From Bacillota bacterium (GTDB lineage: Bacteria > Bacillota > Dethiobacteria > Dethiobacterales > Dethiobacteraceae): a stretch of 64,000 nucleotides of DNA. Below the pieces are notes generated by a model that was not told where the DNA came from, made no database searches, and saw nothing but the letters and a program-made list of their open reading frames with translations. A program made the translations under genes and the position numbers. This document shows, one piece after another, positions 5,673 through 16,573 of this stretch. Within the stretch, counting starts at the first letter, position 1, and the number at the start of each line of letters is the position of its first letter. The stretch spans positions 1 through 64,000 of the forward strand of contig JAAYMN010000031.1 of assembly GCA_012521345.1 (NCBI GenBank), in the 5' to 3' direction.

Positions 5673-6257
5673 TCAGCTTTTGCCAAAAAGCTGCTTAAGC
5701 CATGTCCAAAGACGCGATTTGAAACGCAAAAGCGGCTGCGGTTTTTGCGGCTGTACAGCCACTGTCCTGGTCTGGTTCATACTTTCGCCTTCAGCCTCCA
5801 GGAAACAAAGCGGCGGAAAAAGGACACACCACCAGTTTTGTCCCCGGCCCGCGCCCAAGTAAATCTGCAAAGCCTGGTAAGTGCCGGCGCGGTAAACTTT
5901 CCCGCCGTACATCCTGGTAGGAAAAGAAGCAGGCCCGAGCTCCGCCCGCACGGGATAGGAGCAACCCGCCGCCGCCACTGTTTTTTGGGCGGCGTTAAGC
6001 ACCCGGGGCAGCGCGGCGGCAGTCTGGCGCAGGGCATCCTCGGCACTTTGCGGCTGCGGCAAGCCGGCCAGGACCGCAAGGACGGCGTCACGGACTGCAT
6101 ATTTTATTGCCTGGTCAGCCGGTGCGTCGCTGTGGGCCCGGACATGAAGCCGCAGTACCGTTTCCCCGCCTGCCGTAGCAGCCGGGGGGACGGCCATAAG
6201 CACCGGCAAAAGCAACATGACCAAAAGGGCTGCTTTACGCCCCCGCACTGCCCACAC
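5673..6257 (-). CDS. spoIIR: SpoIIR, stage II sporulation signalling protein
   Basis: The 194-residue product has an N-terminal signal segment (AALLVMLLLPVLMAVPPAA) and the SpoIIR core: LRLHVRAHSDAPADQ, then AIKYAVRDAVL, with CSYPVRAELG and FPTRMYGGKVYRAG later. SpoIIR is made in the forespore, secreted into the intermembrane space, and triggers SpoIIGA to process pro-sigma-E in the mother cell. It starts at GTG 6257 behind a GGGAGGAGG and overlaps the sigG 3' end by 23 bases, so it is co-transcribed with and coupled to sigG. The C-terminal tail (basic, PQKPQPLLRFKSR) looks lineage-specific. Confidence 0.9.
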   Translation of the reverse strand: MWAVRGRKAALLVMLLLPVLMAVPPAATAGGETVLRLHVRAHSDAPADQAIKYAVRDAVLAVLAGLPQPQSAEDALRQTAAALPRVLNAAQKTVAAAGCSYPVRAELGPASFPTRMYGGKVYRAGTYQALQIYLGAGRGQNWWCVLFPPLCFLEAEGESMNQTRTVAVQPQKPQPLLRFKSRLWTWLKQLFGKS

Positions 6258-7047
6258 CCCCGTCCTCCTCCCCTGCCAGGTGGAGCCTGATGCGACGCAG
6301 GGCTGCTTTTTCTATCCGCGACACCTGCGCCTGGGAAATGCCGATGGCGGAAGCTATTTCCGTCTGGGTTCGGCCCTCAAAGAAACGCGATTCCAGGATG
6401 CGCCGCTCCCTCTCCGGAAGAATCTGCAGCGCTTCCCGCAGGGTGATGTCTTCTACCCACAGATCTGCATGGTTTTTCTGGTCGCTGACAAGGTCCATAA
6501 TATAGACCGGGTCAGTGGAATCGGCAAAAACAGGATCGTGCAGCGACACGGGGTCGTTAACGGACTGGTAGGCAAAAACCAGTTCCTCCGGCGTTACTTC
6601 CAGTTCCCGGGCAATTTCCTGGACAGTCGGCTCACGCAGCAGTTTGCGCGTCAGCTCTTCCCTGGCCTGCTGGGCTTTCTGCGCCAGCGCCTTGAGGGAG
6701 CGGCTGACACGGACTGCGCTGTTGTCACGCAGGTGGCGCTTGATTTCACCGATAATCATGGGTACGGCATAGGTGGAAAAATGCACGTTATGTTCAAGGG
6801 AAAAATTGTCAACTGCTTTCAAGAGACCGATACAACCCACCTGGAAAAGATCGTCCAGGTTCTCTCCCCGGTTCTTAAAGCGCTGCAGCACGCTTAACAC
6901 CAGGCGCAGATTGCCGTTCACCAGTTCATGGCGGGCATTTTTATCCCCTGCACGCATCCTGCGGAAGAGTTCCTGCATGCGGGCGCTGCTTAATACCGGC
7001 AGCTTGTAAGTATTGACCCCGCTAAGCTGGACTTTTTTCTCTTGCAT
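6235..7047 (-). CDS. sigG: RNA polymerase late forespore sigma factor SigG
   Basis: The 270-residue protein begins with the SigG-specific N-terminus VQLSGVNTYKLPVLSS, followed by sigma-70 regions 2 (RHELVNGNLRLVLSV, DLFQVGCIGLLKAVDNF), 3 and 4 (EREREILESRFFEG-like LPERERRILESRFFEGRT and a helix-turn-helix ending QAQVSRIEKAAL). It directs late forespore transcription. The ATG follows GGGGGGAAG. A sigma-F consensus promoter lies 29-58 bases upstream. The partner gene sigE is not adjacent, unlike the spoIIGA-sigE-sigG arrangement of many Bacillota. Confidence 0.95.
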   Translation of the reverse strand: MQEKKVQLSGVNTYKLPVLSSARMQELFRRMRAGDKNARHELVNGNLRLVLSVLQRFKNRGENLDDLFQVGCIGLLKAVDNFSLEHNVHFSTYAVPMIIGEIKRHLRDNSAVRVSRSLKALAQKAQQAREELTRKLLREPTVQEIARELEVTPEELVFAYQSVNDPVSLHDPVFADSTDPVYIMDLVSDQKNHADLWVEDITLREALQILPERERRILESRFFEGRTQTEIASAIGISQAQVSRIEKAALRRIRLHLAGEEDGGVGSAGA

Positions 7048-13050: not shown

Positions 13051-13905
13051 CTAAGCCTTACCGGCACTGCCGAAAAGGCGAATCTTTTCCCGGATGACTT
13101 CTTTCATGGCCGCTTTGGCAGGACCCAGGATTTTGCGGGGGTCGTATTCTGCAGGGCTGTCTTGCAGTACTTGCTTCACAGCGCGGGCAAAGGCCTGCCT
13201 GATATCGGTATCAATATTGATTTTGCGGACACCAAGGCTGATGGCGCGGCGGATGCTTTCCGCCGGCACCCCTGAAGCGCCGTGCAGAACCAAAGGTACC
13301 TGCACGCGGTCGCGAATGGCAGCCAAGCGGTCAAAATCCAGGGACGGTTCACCTTTATAGGGACCGTGGGCTGTGCCGATGGCAACAGCCAGCGCATCCA
13401 CGCCCGTGGCAGCGACAAACTGCTCCGCCTCGGCAGGATCCGTAAAAAAGGCATCCCTTTCATCCACGGAGATGTCATCTTCCGTACCGCCGATTTTGCC
13501 CAGCTCGCCCTCCACGGACACTCCCATGGCATGAGCCACTTCCGCCACACGCTGTGTCTGGGCAATATTGTCTGCCAGGGCATATTTGGAGCCGTCAAAC
13601 ATGACGGAAGTAAAGCCGTGGCGCAGGCAAAGCATGGCCTGCTCGAAGCTGGTGCCGTGATCAAGATGCAGCACTACCGGAACAGTTGCGGCAGCAGCCG
13701 CCGCCCTGACCATGGCTGTTATGTAGGGCAGCCCGGCATACTTGATCGCTCCCTGGCTGGCCTGCAAGATAACAGGCGCCCTCTCTTCCTCTGCCGTTTC
13801 CATAATTGCCTGCAAGATTTCCATGTTATTCGTGTTAAAGGCGCCCACGGCGTAGCCGCCGCGCTCCGCCTCCTGCAGGACTTCTTTCAGCGTGACAAGG
13901 CTCAT
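13051..13905 (-). CDS. fba: class II fructose-1,6-bisphosphate aldolase
   Basis: The 284-residue protein has class II aldolase motifs: [15 protein letters not shown] at the N-terminus, the Zn-binding [13 protein letters not shown], and [13 protein letters not shown]. It cleaves or condenses fructose-1,6-bisphosphate in glycolysis and gluconeogenesis. GGGAGGG precedes the ATG. A 12-bp perfect inverted repeat separates it from spo0F, so the operon may be partly terminated or processed there. Substrate could also be a ketose such as tagatose bisphosphate, but the neighbourhood favours fructose bisphosphate. Confidence 0.93.
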
Positions 13906-13924
13906 TTGTTTTCCCTCCCTTAAG

Positions 13925-13977
13925 AAGGCTGTTTAATGACTGCAGAAAAGGATTATGACTGCAGTTTAAACAGCCTT
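13925..13977 (-). terminator. long hairpin between spo0F and fba
   Basis: AAGGCTGTTTAA (13925-13936) and TTAAACAGCCTT (13966-13977) are perfect 12-base complements around a 29-base loop that itself holds two copies of TGCAGTCA on the minus strand. Only a short CTTCTT follows, so it is a weak terminator or an RNA-processing/stability hairpin immediately before the fba Shine-Dalgarno. Confidence 0.55.
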
Positions 13978-14006
13978 TGCAGTAATGTTATGCCAAAAAT
14001 AAATTA

Positions 14007-14378
14007 TTAAGCACTTGCAGCCTGTAATTTCGCTTCTATAATACTTTTCAGCTCCTCAATGTCAAACGGTTTGGAAATGTAGCCCGCGGCGCCCCGCCGC
14101 CGCGCCTCTTTCAGTACTTCCAGTTCCTCGTAAGCTGTCATAATCAGGATAATGACATAGGGTGCATACTGTTTCAGGAGTGTTAAAGTTTCCAGGCCGT
14201 CCATACCGGACATTTTCATATCAAGCAGTACCAGGTCGATTTTGGTCCGCCTGATCATTTCCACGGCCTCACTGCCGCCGGAGGCTGTCAAGACCTTGTA
14301 GCCGGCATCCTGCAAAACCTCCTGCAACAGCTTGCGAATACCGACGCGGTCATCAACCACCATAATGGTAGCAGTCAT
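14007..14378 (-). CDS. spo0F: Spo0F-type single-domain response regulator
   Basis: The 123-residue protein is a stand-alone receiver domain: acidic pocket VVDD at residues 8-10, phospho-acceptor Asp53 in LVLLDMKMSGMDG, a conserved T in IMTAYEE and the lysine in YISKPFD. Position before fba-fsa-glpX is the conserved location of spo0F, the phosphorelay intermediate between sporulation kinases and Spo0B/Spo0A. Clostridia often lack Spo0B, so here it may act in a different phosphotransfer; that is inference. GGAGGGGG precedes the ATG and a sigma-H-like promoter lies upstream. Confidence 0.88.
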   Translation of the reverse strand: MTATIMVVDDRVGIRKLLQEVLQDAGYKVLTASGGSEAVEMIRRTKIDLVLLDMKMSGMDGLETLTLLKQYAPYVIILIMTAYEELEVLKEARRRGAAGYISKPFDIEELKSIIEAKLQAASA

Positions 14379-14409
14379 CTTTTCCCCCTCCTTGTTCAGT
14401 CTCCCAGTA

Positions 14410-14438
14410 TATTTCTCCCCCGGCAGGCAATTTCCTTT
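14410..14438 (-). promoter_or_regulatory. candidate sigma-H promoter of spo0F
   Basis: On the minus strand AAAGGAAAT (14430-14438), 11 bases, GGAGAAATA (14410-14418). The first element fits the sigma-H -35 consensus RnAGGAWWW fully; the second differs by one base from RnnGAATWW. spo0F in Bacillus has a sigma-H promoter, which makes the match plausible. Confidence 0.45.
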
Positions 14439-14474
14439 TTAATTGACAGCTTTTTGCAATTGCTGCAGCATTCG

Positions 14475-14567
14475 CTATTTCAGCAACCAGCGGCGGAAAC
14501 TGGCAAACAGGGACGCAAACCAGTCCAACATGCGCCGGGTACGTGATTTGCGTGTGCGAAAGAACAT
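14475..14567 (-). CDS. 30-residue cationic amphipathic peptide, unknown function
   Basis: The frame MFFRTRKSRTRR followed by MLDWFASLFASFRRWLLK is preceded by a strong AAAGGAGGAG at 7-base spacing, much better than chance. It carries seven Arg and two Lys against one Asp; the second half forms an amphipathic helix with aromatic residues. A TATAAT lies on the minus strand at 14623-14628, after the ferredoxin terminator, so it could be a monocistronic transcript. I do not recognise a family. It could be a membrane-active peptide, a regulatory leader peptide for spo0F, or spurious. Confidence 0.5.
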   Translation of the reverse strand: MFFRTRKSRTRRMLDWFASLFASFRRWLLK

Positions 14568-14660
14568 AAATCCGCTCCTCCTTTGCGCCTTTTTGCCTGT
14601 AATTTCTCCTACCGCAAAAAGTATTATACGGCAAAAGCACAAGGCGGAAGGAGGATAAAA

Positions 14661-14680
14661 AAGAGGGCACACGCCCTCTT
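14661..14680. terminator. bidirectional intrinsic terminator after the ferredoxin gene
   Basis: AAGAGGGC, ACAC, GCCCTCTT is a perfect 8-bp stem. On the minus strand it is followed by six T residues and lies 14 bases after the ferredoxin stop. Confidence 0.85.
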
Positions 14681-14693
14681 TTTGCTATTTATT

Positions 14694-14867
14694 TTACTCA
14701 GCAGGGTGAATAGCCTCCACCGGGCAGACTTCCTCACAAGCACCACAATCAATGCATGTTTCCGGGTCAATGTTATATTTGGTATCTCCTTCAGAAATGG
14801 CGTCAACCGGGCATTCGGCCTGACAGGAACCGCATGCGATGCAATCGTCGTTAATGACACGAGGCAT
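14694..14867 (-). CDS. 2[4Fe-4S] ferredoxin
   Basis: The 57-residue protein has two clostridial ferredoxin cluster motifs, CIACGSCQAECP and CIDCGACEEVCP, and nothing else. It is a soluble low-potential electron carrier for anaerobic enzymes, and a plausible partner for the NADH/NADPH/ferredoxin oxidoreductase encoded at 26-32 kb. The ATG at 14867 has AGGTAGGTG at good spacing; a GTG three codons earlier is possible. It is monocistronic between a promoter and a terminator. Confidence 0.95.
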   Translation of the reverse strand: MPRVINDDCIACGSCQAECPVDAISEGDTKYNIDPETCIDCGACEEVCPVEAIHPAE

Positions 14868-14893
14868 TACGGCCACCTACCTTTCTTCACATT

Positions 14894-14921
14894 AGTATAA
14901 ATTAATACATTAATTTTGTAA
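14894..14921 (-). promoter_or_regulatory. ferredoxin promoter overlapping an AT-rich palindrome
   Basis: On the minus strand TTACAA (14916-14921), 16 bases, TATACT (14894-14899). The spacer is almost entirely an inverted repeat, AAATTAAT - AC - ATTAATTT (14899-14916), placed as an operator would be. No known regulator motif was recognised. Confidence 0.5.
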
Positions 14922-14956
14922 CATATTCTTCTGCAAAAGACAATATAAAAACCGCT

Positions 14957-16573
14957 TTATTCCGTTTTGCTTTGGCGAAAAACCAAAGCGGCGGCAATAA
15001 AATCACGGAATAGGGGATGCGCCCTGTTGGGCCGGGACTTAAACTCAGGATGAAACTGTGTGGCTACAAACCAGGGGTGGTCCGGCAGTTCAATGATTTC
15101 CACCAAGCTGTTGTCCGGAGAAACGCCGCTGATGCGCAGGCCGGAATGAACCAGGCTGTCGCGGAAGTCATTATTCAGTTCATAACGGTGGCGGTGGCGT
15201 TCATGGACAAGCCGTGTGCCGTATGCTTTGGCGGCAAATGTCCCTTCTTCCAACCGGCAGGGGTAAAGCCCCAGGCGCATTGTTCCGCCAAGGTCGGCCA
15301 CATTTTTTTGCGAGGGCAAAAGGTCAATCACCGGATGGGCGGAATGGGGGGCGAACTCGGAAGAATTGGCATCCTGCCAACCGCAGACATTGCGGGCAAA
15401 TTCAATAATGGCACAGTGCATGCCCAGGCAAATGCCAAAAAATGGAACCTTGTTTTCCCTGGCAAAACGGACGGCCTTGATTTTGCCTTCAATCCCCCTG
15501 TCGCCAAAACCGCCCGGAATGAGAATGCCGTCCACCCCCGCAAGGTAAGCGGCTGCACCGTCTTTTTCCACATCTTCGGCCTGAATCCAGCGGATTTCCA
15601 CCTCGCAGTCGTTTTCATAACCGCCGTGATACAGGGACTCGGCCACACTAAGGTAGGCGTCCCTCAGGGAAACATACTTGCCCACCAGACCGATTGTCAC
15701 CCGGTGCCGCAAATTTTTTATTCTCTGCACAAGCTCTTCCCAGCTGCTCATATCGCAGTCCCCGTCTTTGAGACCAAGCTGCCGGACGACAATGGTGTCA
15801 AGGCCTTCCTGCCGCAATTTCAGCGGCACTTCATAGATTATTTCCACGTCCAGGTTTTCAATGACAGCTTCCGGAGCTATATCGCAGAAAAGAGCAATTT
15901 TTTCTTTTATATCGCGGGAAAGGGGCTTTTCCGTCCGGCAAACAATGACGTCGGGCTGAATACCGATGGAGCGCAGTTCCTTGACGGAATGCTGGGTCGG
16001 CTTTGTTTTCAGCTCGCCCGACTTGGCCAGGTAGGGGACGTATGTGACATGAATATACATCACCTTGTCCCGGCCGATATCGCTTTTCATCTGGCGGATA
16101 GCCTCCAGGAAAGGCAGGCTTTCTATATCGCCCACCGTACCGCCGATTTCCGTAATCACCACATCTACTTCCGCCTCCCTGGCGGAGCGCATGATGCGGT
16201 CCTTAATCTCATTGGTAATATGGGGAATCACCTGGACCGTACCGCCGAGAAATTCGCCTTTGCGTTCCTTGCTGATGACGGACCAGTATATTTTTCCCGT
16301 GGTTACGTTGGAGTTTTTTGTTAAATTAATATCAATAAAGCGCTCATAATGGCCCAAATCCAGATCGGTTTCCGCCCCGTCATCGGTGACGAATACTTCG
16401 CCGTGTTGATAAGGACTCATGGTACCGGGGTCAAAGTTTATATAAGGATCAAACTTTTGCGTAGTAACTTTCAGACCGCGGCATTTCAGCAGGCAGCCCA
16501 GTGATGCGGCAGTGATTCCCTTGCCAAGGGAAGAAGCTACACCGCCTGTGATAAAAATGTATTTTGTGCCCAT
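14957..16573 (-). CDS. pyrG: CTP synthase
   Basis: The 538-residue protein has the synthetase domain ([20 protein letters not shown], then [14 protein letters not shown]) and a C-terminal class I glutamine amidotransferase domain with [19 protein letters not shown] and [12 protein letters not shown]. It makes CTP from UTP, ATP and glutamine. The start at 16573 follows AAGGTGG; a longer in-frame opening adds 18 residues not found in the family. Its last bases are 80 bases from the ferredoxin promoter. No pyrG attenuator of the Bacillus type was recognised. Confidence 0.96.

Follow-up and report, generated by a model that had tools for sequence, protein, structure and literature searches.

The DNA analysed here, a stretch of 64 kb referred to as the window, carries a short open reading frame (ORF) on its minus strand, between a ferredoxin gene and a spo0F-like gene. 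The features of this locus and the evidence for each are as follows:

14007–14378, minus strand: spo0F-like single-domain response regulator, with Spo0F chains as its eight best solved relatives
14409–14436, minus strand: sigma-H-like promoter of spo0F, AGGAAAT ... GAAATAT in this genome (pattern and comparison of loci)
14475–14567, minus strand: small protein gene, 30 aa, MFFRTRKSRTRRMLDWFASLFASFRRWLLK, stop codon included (sequence, orthologues, selection and helix)
14575–14584, minus strand: Shine-Dalgarno sequence AAAGGAGGAG (sequence)
14600–14629, minus strand: sigma-F-type promoter, consisting of GTATA (14625–14629), 15 nt and GGAGAAATTA (14600–14609) (pattern match)
14658–14683, no strand assigned: terminator-like palindrome that separates the ferredoxin and small protein genes (terminator scan)
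14694–14876, minus strand: 4Fe-4S ferredoxin gene, the upstream neighbour (NF058577, 90.4 bits against a cut-off of 65)

The ORF runs on the minus strand from an ATG at 14567–14565 through 30 codons to a TAG stop. The first GGAGG of its Shine-Dalgarno sequence lies 9 nt from the ATG, and the computed net charge of the product is +8 (nine Lys/Arg and one Asp). These values agree with a first-pass annotation of the locus, which had described a strong Shine-Dalgarno sequence at good spacing and a charge of about +8, and the solved relatives of the neighbouring regulator fit its placement of the ORF beside spo0F. Ordinary gene finding would easily overlook an ORF of 30 residues. Three other ORFs overlap 14475–14567, namely a 105-aa frame on the minus strand, a 71-aa frame on the plus strand and an in-frame GTG extension to 65 aa. 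The extension would cross the promoter, and the length of the open frame varies among relatives. The overlaps are mechanical and selection is strongest in the named frame (see below), which upholds the earlier statement that no larger gene explains the ORF. On the upstream side, the terminator-like palindrome suggests that the ferredoxin gene and the small protein gene are separate transcription units; it was listed on the plus strand only (one found versus 1.5 expected in shuffled sequences), and in our reading of the minus strand its T run falls in the second arm of the stem.

A first search with the small peptide sequence alone against 99 relatives revealed an orthologue upstream of spo0F in 16 of the 19 genomes of the window's family (f1). 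A profile search covered 97 genomes of the class, comprising these 19, two genomes of a second family (f2) and 76 others. Strong matches (E 1.2e-5 or better) were obtained in 17 of the 19 and in both f2 genomes, all upstream of spo0F, and since the profile (A1) was built from the 19 orthologue sequences themselves, this count measures absence elsewhere and not presence within the two families. The 76 other genomes of the class gave no strong match (best E 0.0145). In both genomes of the second family the peptide is 17–27% identical to that of the window and the orientation relative to spo0F is divergent. One additional genome, UBA3936 (locus L086), also has the gene. The two genomes of the window's family that lack a strong match are G007 and G018; in G007, neither a close spo0F (best response-regulator match 2.1e-14) nor spoIIR was found. 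Loss of the frame or start codon in close relatives had been set beforehand as the refutation test, and all 17 intact copies in the family retain both, four of them with a GTG start; the sole syntenic genome without the gene is G018, which has lost sporulation genes.

Across the loci, spo0F is the constant neighbour of the small protein gene, and a ferredoxin gene usually lies upstream. The upstream stretch instead codes for the apparent end of a membrane protein in G004, G010 and G013, and its identity was not found in G012 and G017. At the G012 locus (L070), about 300 nt more than in relatives lie between the peptide gene and spo0F, with both ORFs open. The spo0F-like regulator was matched at 68% or more by 17 of 57 named loci, which belong to metagenome-assembled genomes labelled Bacillota, Firmicutes, Clostridiales, Clostridium sp. 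or Dethiobacter sp. The family probably falls within or close to Dethiobacteraceae, and Dethiobacter alkaliphilus AHT1, a cultured relative described as endospore-forming in PMC5609068, may carry the gene. Among 398 genomes sampled across the phylum, five weak matches to the peptide were obtained outside the family (E 5e-4 to 3e-3), and the two that were inspected were judged to be chance matches and had no sigma-F-type site. No Pfam or NCBIfam family matched any of the 19 members at E ≤ 10, in line with the earlier remark that the peptide belongs to no known family, and no literature on the gene was found in open-access PMC.

The reading frame is under purifying selection. Among nine orthologues with 30 aligned codons, pN/pS was 0.23 in the named frame; the shifted forward frames gave 0.88 and 2.13, and the three reverse frames 1.05, 0.41 and 2.24. 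The comparison of synonymous and non-synonymous change, which the first-pass annotation had proposed as a check, therefore gave its lowest value in the named frame. The ratio was 0.13 in another genus with three genomes and 0.08 for a pair in a third genus. It was 0.34 in the window's own genus versus 0.47 in the next frame, and 0.48 versus 0.56 in genus g8; the signal is weak within single genera with few changes, and it therefore stems from the deeper comparisons. Short ORFs commonly arise by chance and one of them could come to lie behind a good Shine-Dalgarno sequence, but conservation and selection refute this explanation, the promoter motif also argues against it, and we regard it as negligible. 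The ORF at 14475–14567 is thus almost certainly a real gene, judged from comparative sequence evidence.

The promoter of the small protein gene resembles that of spore formers' forespore genes. The sigma-F consensus is GYATA-N15-GGnnAnAnT. The pattern GHATA-N15-GGNNANANTW had a single match in the 64 kb window, at 14600–14629 (0.11 expected; 10 of 100 shuffled sequences had one), and the only match to the stricter pattern GYATA-N15-GGNRAAATTA anywhere in the 2.06 Mb genome fell at that same position. Over 22 genomes, the stricter pattern matched 23 times, including 10 times at the small protein locus, while a backward control pattern matched five times; seven of the 13 matches elsewhere share one coding-looking sequence. 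GHATA-N15-GGnnAnAnT was present in 19 of 21 orthologous loci, 55–96 nt before the start (0.02 expected by shuffling), although these are not 19 independent events because the loci are related. The exceptions are G013, with one mismatch, and L086, with one deletion. The second family also carries a sigma-F-type promoter. A sigma-A reading of the overlapping TATAAT was rejected, as no sigma-70 site was listed and TATAAT is lost in G005 and G011, where GHATA and GGnnA, unlike TATAAT, are kept.

Inverted repeats of changing sequence flank the promoter (14590–14645 in the window, minus strand) in some relatives but not in others. Their perfect arms measure 7–9 bp at 7 of 19 sites and 5 bp or less at 8 of 19; p was below 0.05 against shuffled sequences at 6 of 19 sites, and the summed length was 112 bp versus 86 bp expected. 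No claim is made for these repeats.

PMC3789822 names a conserved G on the upstream side of the −10 element as the mark of sigma-F promoters, and an A on the downstream side as that of sigma-G promoters. Both marks were read as present at the small protein promoter, and sigma-G may therefore also use it. From its motif, the promoter belongs to the sigma-F type of spore formers, and control of the gene by sigma-F is strongly favoured.

Three known sporulation genes served as controls. At sigG, the same promoter elements were present upstream in 20 of 22 genomes, with a spacing of 14 nt in 19 of them and of 15 nt in G024. In B. subtilis, the spacing is 14 nt at sigG compared with 15 nt in most of ten sigma-F promoters, according to PMC5942855, and the difference between the 14-nt sigG and the 15-nt small protein spacing matches this published difference. 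The same paper gives the reduced spacing at sigG for only 3 of 13 Clostridia, with 10 of 13 not using it; on this basis, the sigG control follows the Bacilli rule. For gpr, the sigma-F-type motif was found at none of 19 loci within 230 nt upstream. Likewise, no clear sigma-F-type site was seen among 25 spoIIR loci, two of which scored 6.0 and 6.1 against a random 95% level of 5.0. Since gpr closely follows another gene in most of 14 upstream stretches and spoIIR follows a sigma-factor gene, both may be in operons. Nevertheless, gpr and spoIIR count against the promoter reading, and sigG is the control that showed the motif.

The genome of the window contains a sigF-like gene preceded by what we read as dacF, spoIIAA and spoIIAB; its product scores best with the SigF/SigG model, below the cut-off of that model. 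The genome also has sigG, gpr, spoIIR, spoIVA and spoVM. A second SigG-type sigma factor gene (6286–7038, minus strand) lies in the window directly before spoIIR (5787–6170, minus strand), apart from the canonical sigG on another contig. It reached 400 bits with PRK08215 (cut-off 372) and 383 bits with TIGR02850 (below 457), and 20 of 22 genomes gave a second match of 344–402 bits. If spoIIR does have a duplicated forespore sigma factor next to it, this would merit a study of its own.

The link between the peptide and sporulation was strengthened by a natural loss. In G018, the promoter, the Shine-Dalgarno sequence and the first six codons are kept, and an in-frame loss of 26 codons leaves MLFRMR followed by a stop. 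Matches to gpr, spoIIR and spoVM were not found in this genome, nor was a sigma factor of sigG or sigF strength: its hits reached 127 bits (RpoD-like in size and score), 84 bits (SigB/F/G-type, below all sporulation cut-offs) and 40 bits (FliA), compared with 488, 383 and 156 bits in the congener G014. Only residues 393–492 of the 492 of spoIVA were found, with the stop, 4.4 kb inside a contig, and three stops lie in the same frame just before this fragment. The congeners G006, G014 and G017 have an intact peptide gene together with gpr, spoIIR, spoVM and spoIVA. Single absences mean little, because spoVM was also missed in G002, G003 and G016, gpr in G001 and G011, and spoIIR in G007. However, the joint absences and the broken spoIVA indicate that G018 has very likely lost sporulation, and loss of the peptide along with it ties the peptide to sporulation, in one case from a 500-contig draft that is the sole relative examined with lost spore genes. 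Taken with the promoter, this suggests that the small gene very probably has a sporulation function. The profile search revealed no recognisable copy in other families of the class that bear sigG, gpr or spoIIR, so the peptide is not a core sporulation protein.

The relation of the small gene to spo0F was evaluated from the sequence between them. Of 20 loci scanned, 16 have a sigma-H-like pattern, AGGAWW-N13..16-GAAT/C, in the interval from the peptide gene to spo0F; the pattern misses G000, G001, G002 and G013, and the window's genus carries a weaker form. In 8 of 20 loci this promoter is preceded by TGTCAAT/A (14442–14448 in the window, minus strand), which we take to resemble a Spo0A box.

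The small ORF immediately precedes spo0F on one strand, and the scan listed no terminator-like site in the gap, so it could be a leader peptide whose translation controls spo0F; a leader peptide was one of the roles considered by the first-pass annotation. This role is not supported, because the small gene has its own sigma-F-type promoter, most loci have the separate sigma-H-like promoter between the two genes, and selection has kept the amino acids and the helix face. Moreover, the peptide is still conserved in G012, where the gap to spo0F is about 400 nt. Inspection of the alignments by eye showed neither a regulatory codon run nor an arrest motif. Translational control of spo0F by the ORF is very unlikely, and the small gene is probably no leader peptide, read-through into spo0F being conceivable.

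The conformation of the peptide was assessed by hydrophobic moment and structure prediction. Residues 9–29 are amphipathic, with a moment of 0.71 for the best 18 residues; from residue 9 to the end the moment was 0.54, compared with a shuffle mean of 0.24 (p 0.017). Eleven of 12 family members scored gave p 0.026 or less, and G019 gave p 0.09, which substantiates the amphipathic second half noted earlier. AlphaFold2, run on 20 rows, predicted a single helix at residues 9–29 with a loose basic tail (mean pLDDT 79; block means 59, 88 and 92, the last two for residues 11–30). Nine hydrophobic positions (13, 14, 16, 17, 20, 21, 24, 27 and 28) lie on one face, and six of them interchange Leu, Met, Ile, Val, Phe and Trp among nine orthologues, in which Trp16, Phe21, Trp27, Arg9, Arg12, Asp15, Arg25 and Arg26 are fixed. 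The two faces are not cleanly separated: Arg9 is found on the hydrophobic side, and the polar side includes position 29 (Leu, Gln or Phe). We saw no transmembrane run. A peripheral membrane helix is the simplest reading of the predicted structure, the fixed polar residues leaving room for a protein partner, and membrane-associated action in the forespore is rather likely. The earlier description of a genuine small membrane-active protein thus stands as to genuineness, given conservation and selection, while membrane activity is plausible from the predicted helix.

Alternatively, the target of the forespore product might be a protein or nucleic acid instead of a membrane, the peptide serving as a small regulator of a partner such as RNA polymerase, a sigma factor, FtsZ, a protease or forespore DNA. 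Fin, CsfB, MciZ and the small acid-soluble proteins are models for such partner binding, and inhibition of a partner is common among the known small sporulation proteins. Conservation is among the highest in the basic stretch around KSR (R6, K7 and R9 in at least 90% of 20 rows), the polar-face Asp15 and Arg25-Arg26 are invariant in the nine orthologues, which pure lipid binding would not require, and Arg-rich helices bind nucleic acid or proteins too. However, the hydrophobic face with Trp at its edge and the interchange at six face positions, as lipid contact predicts, argue for the membrane, and a regulator is the less likely product, though a possible one.

The size, charge and amphipathic helix also resemble those of some membrane toxins, and the first-pass annotation had mentioned a type I toxin-like product; such a toxin would be paired with an antisense RNA. 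In PHROGs, only a weak match to a holin model was obtained, for 2 of the 19 members (best E 0.015). This proposal is not supported, since each family genome that has the gene gave a single strong match at a fixed place, searches of 72,556 plasmid and 50,697 phage records gave no match at E ≤ 1, a scan with sigma-70 patterns only revealed no plus-strand promoter-like site in 13900–15000, and the promoter is of a developmental type. A type I toxin is accordingly given very little credence, even less than a leader peptide.

Overall, the best reading is that the gene encodes a forespore-made sporulation peptide whose amphipathic helix lies on the forespore membrane, which we consider somewhat likely. 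We infer that after formation of the asymmetric septum, the sigma-F RNA polymerase of the forespore would transcribe the small gene from GTATA-N15-GGAGAAATTA. The product of 30–33 residues would consist of a short, very basic N-terminal tail and the single amphipathic helix of residues 9–29, one side presenting Trp, Phe and Leu and the other chiefly Arg, Ser, Ala and Gly. The helix would lie peripherally against the forespore membrane, on its inner face, and the peptide may contribute to one step in forespore morphogenesis, much as SpoVM acts from the mother cell. More tentatively, it could be a counterpart of SpoVM in the forespore lineage, a sigma-F-made peptide that coats the inner forespore membrane and perhaps senses curvature or charge from inside, in a family that also has the ordinary SpoVM on the mother-cell side. 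We know of no earlier amphipathic-helix morphogenetic peptide of the forespore line, and if true, this would be the first known to us. The original interpretation of the ORF is partly borne out; the developmental promoter at 14600–14629 and the forespore sporulation context were absent from it.

Among known systems, the peptide is most readily compared with SpoVM (NF033436), likewise a very small, cationic sporulation protein with an amphipathic helix whose ORF is easily missed. Production of SpoVM takes place in the mother cell under sigma-E, and its helix binds curved membrane. The present gene lies at a different place and has a promoter motif of the forespore sigma-F type. The peptide is not SpoVM itself: a separate canonical spoVM, over the cut-off, is present in the genome (G000:C129:151-225), the peptide has no NF033436 or Pfam match, and BLASTP against this SpoVM gave no alignment at E ≤ 100. 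The forespore anti-sigma proteins Fin and CsfB are also small and made under sigma-F, but they are longer and folded or zinc-binding. MciZ and CmpA, sporulation regulators of roughly 40 residues, are alike in size class and developmental control but are mother-cell proteins under sigma-E. The new family differs from Fin, CsfB, MciZ and CmpA in having no Pfam or NCBIfam match. The type I toxins TisB, BsrG, TxpA and Ibs are similar in size, positive charge and helix, whereas no antisense sign and no mobile or multiple copies were found for the new gene. Neither genetics nor annotation readily uncovers tiny sporulation proteins, although SpoVM, MciZ and CmpA each revealed a mechanism. To these the present locus adds a candidate of the forespore line whose promoter motif and helix are both clear and which has been lost naturally in a lineage with lost sporulation genes, together with a search strategy that combines short ORFs behind sigma-F promoters with decay in asporogenous relatives.
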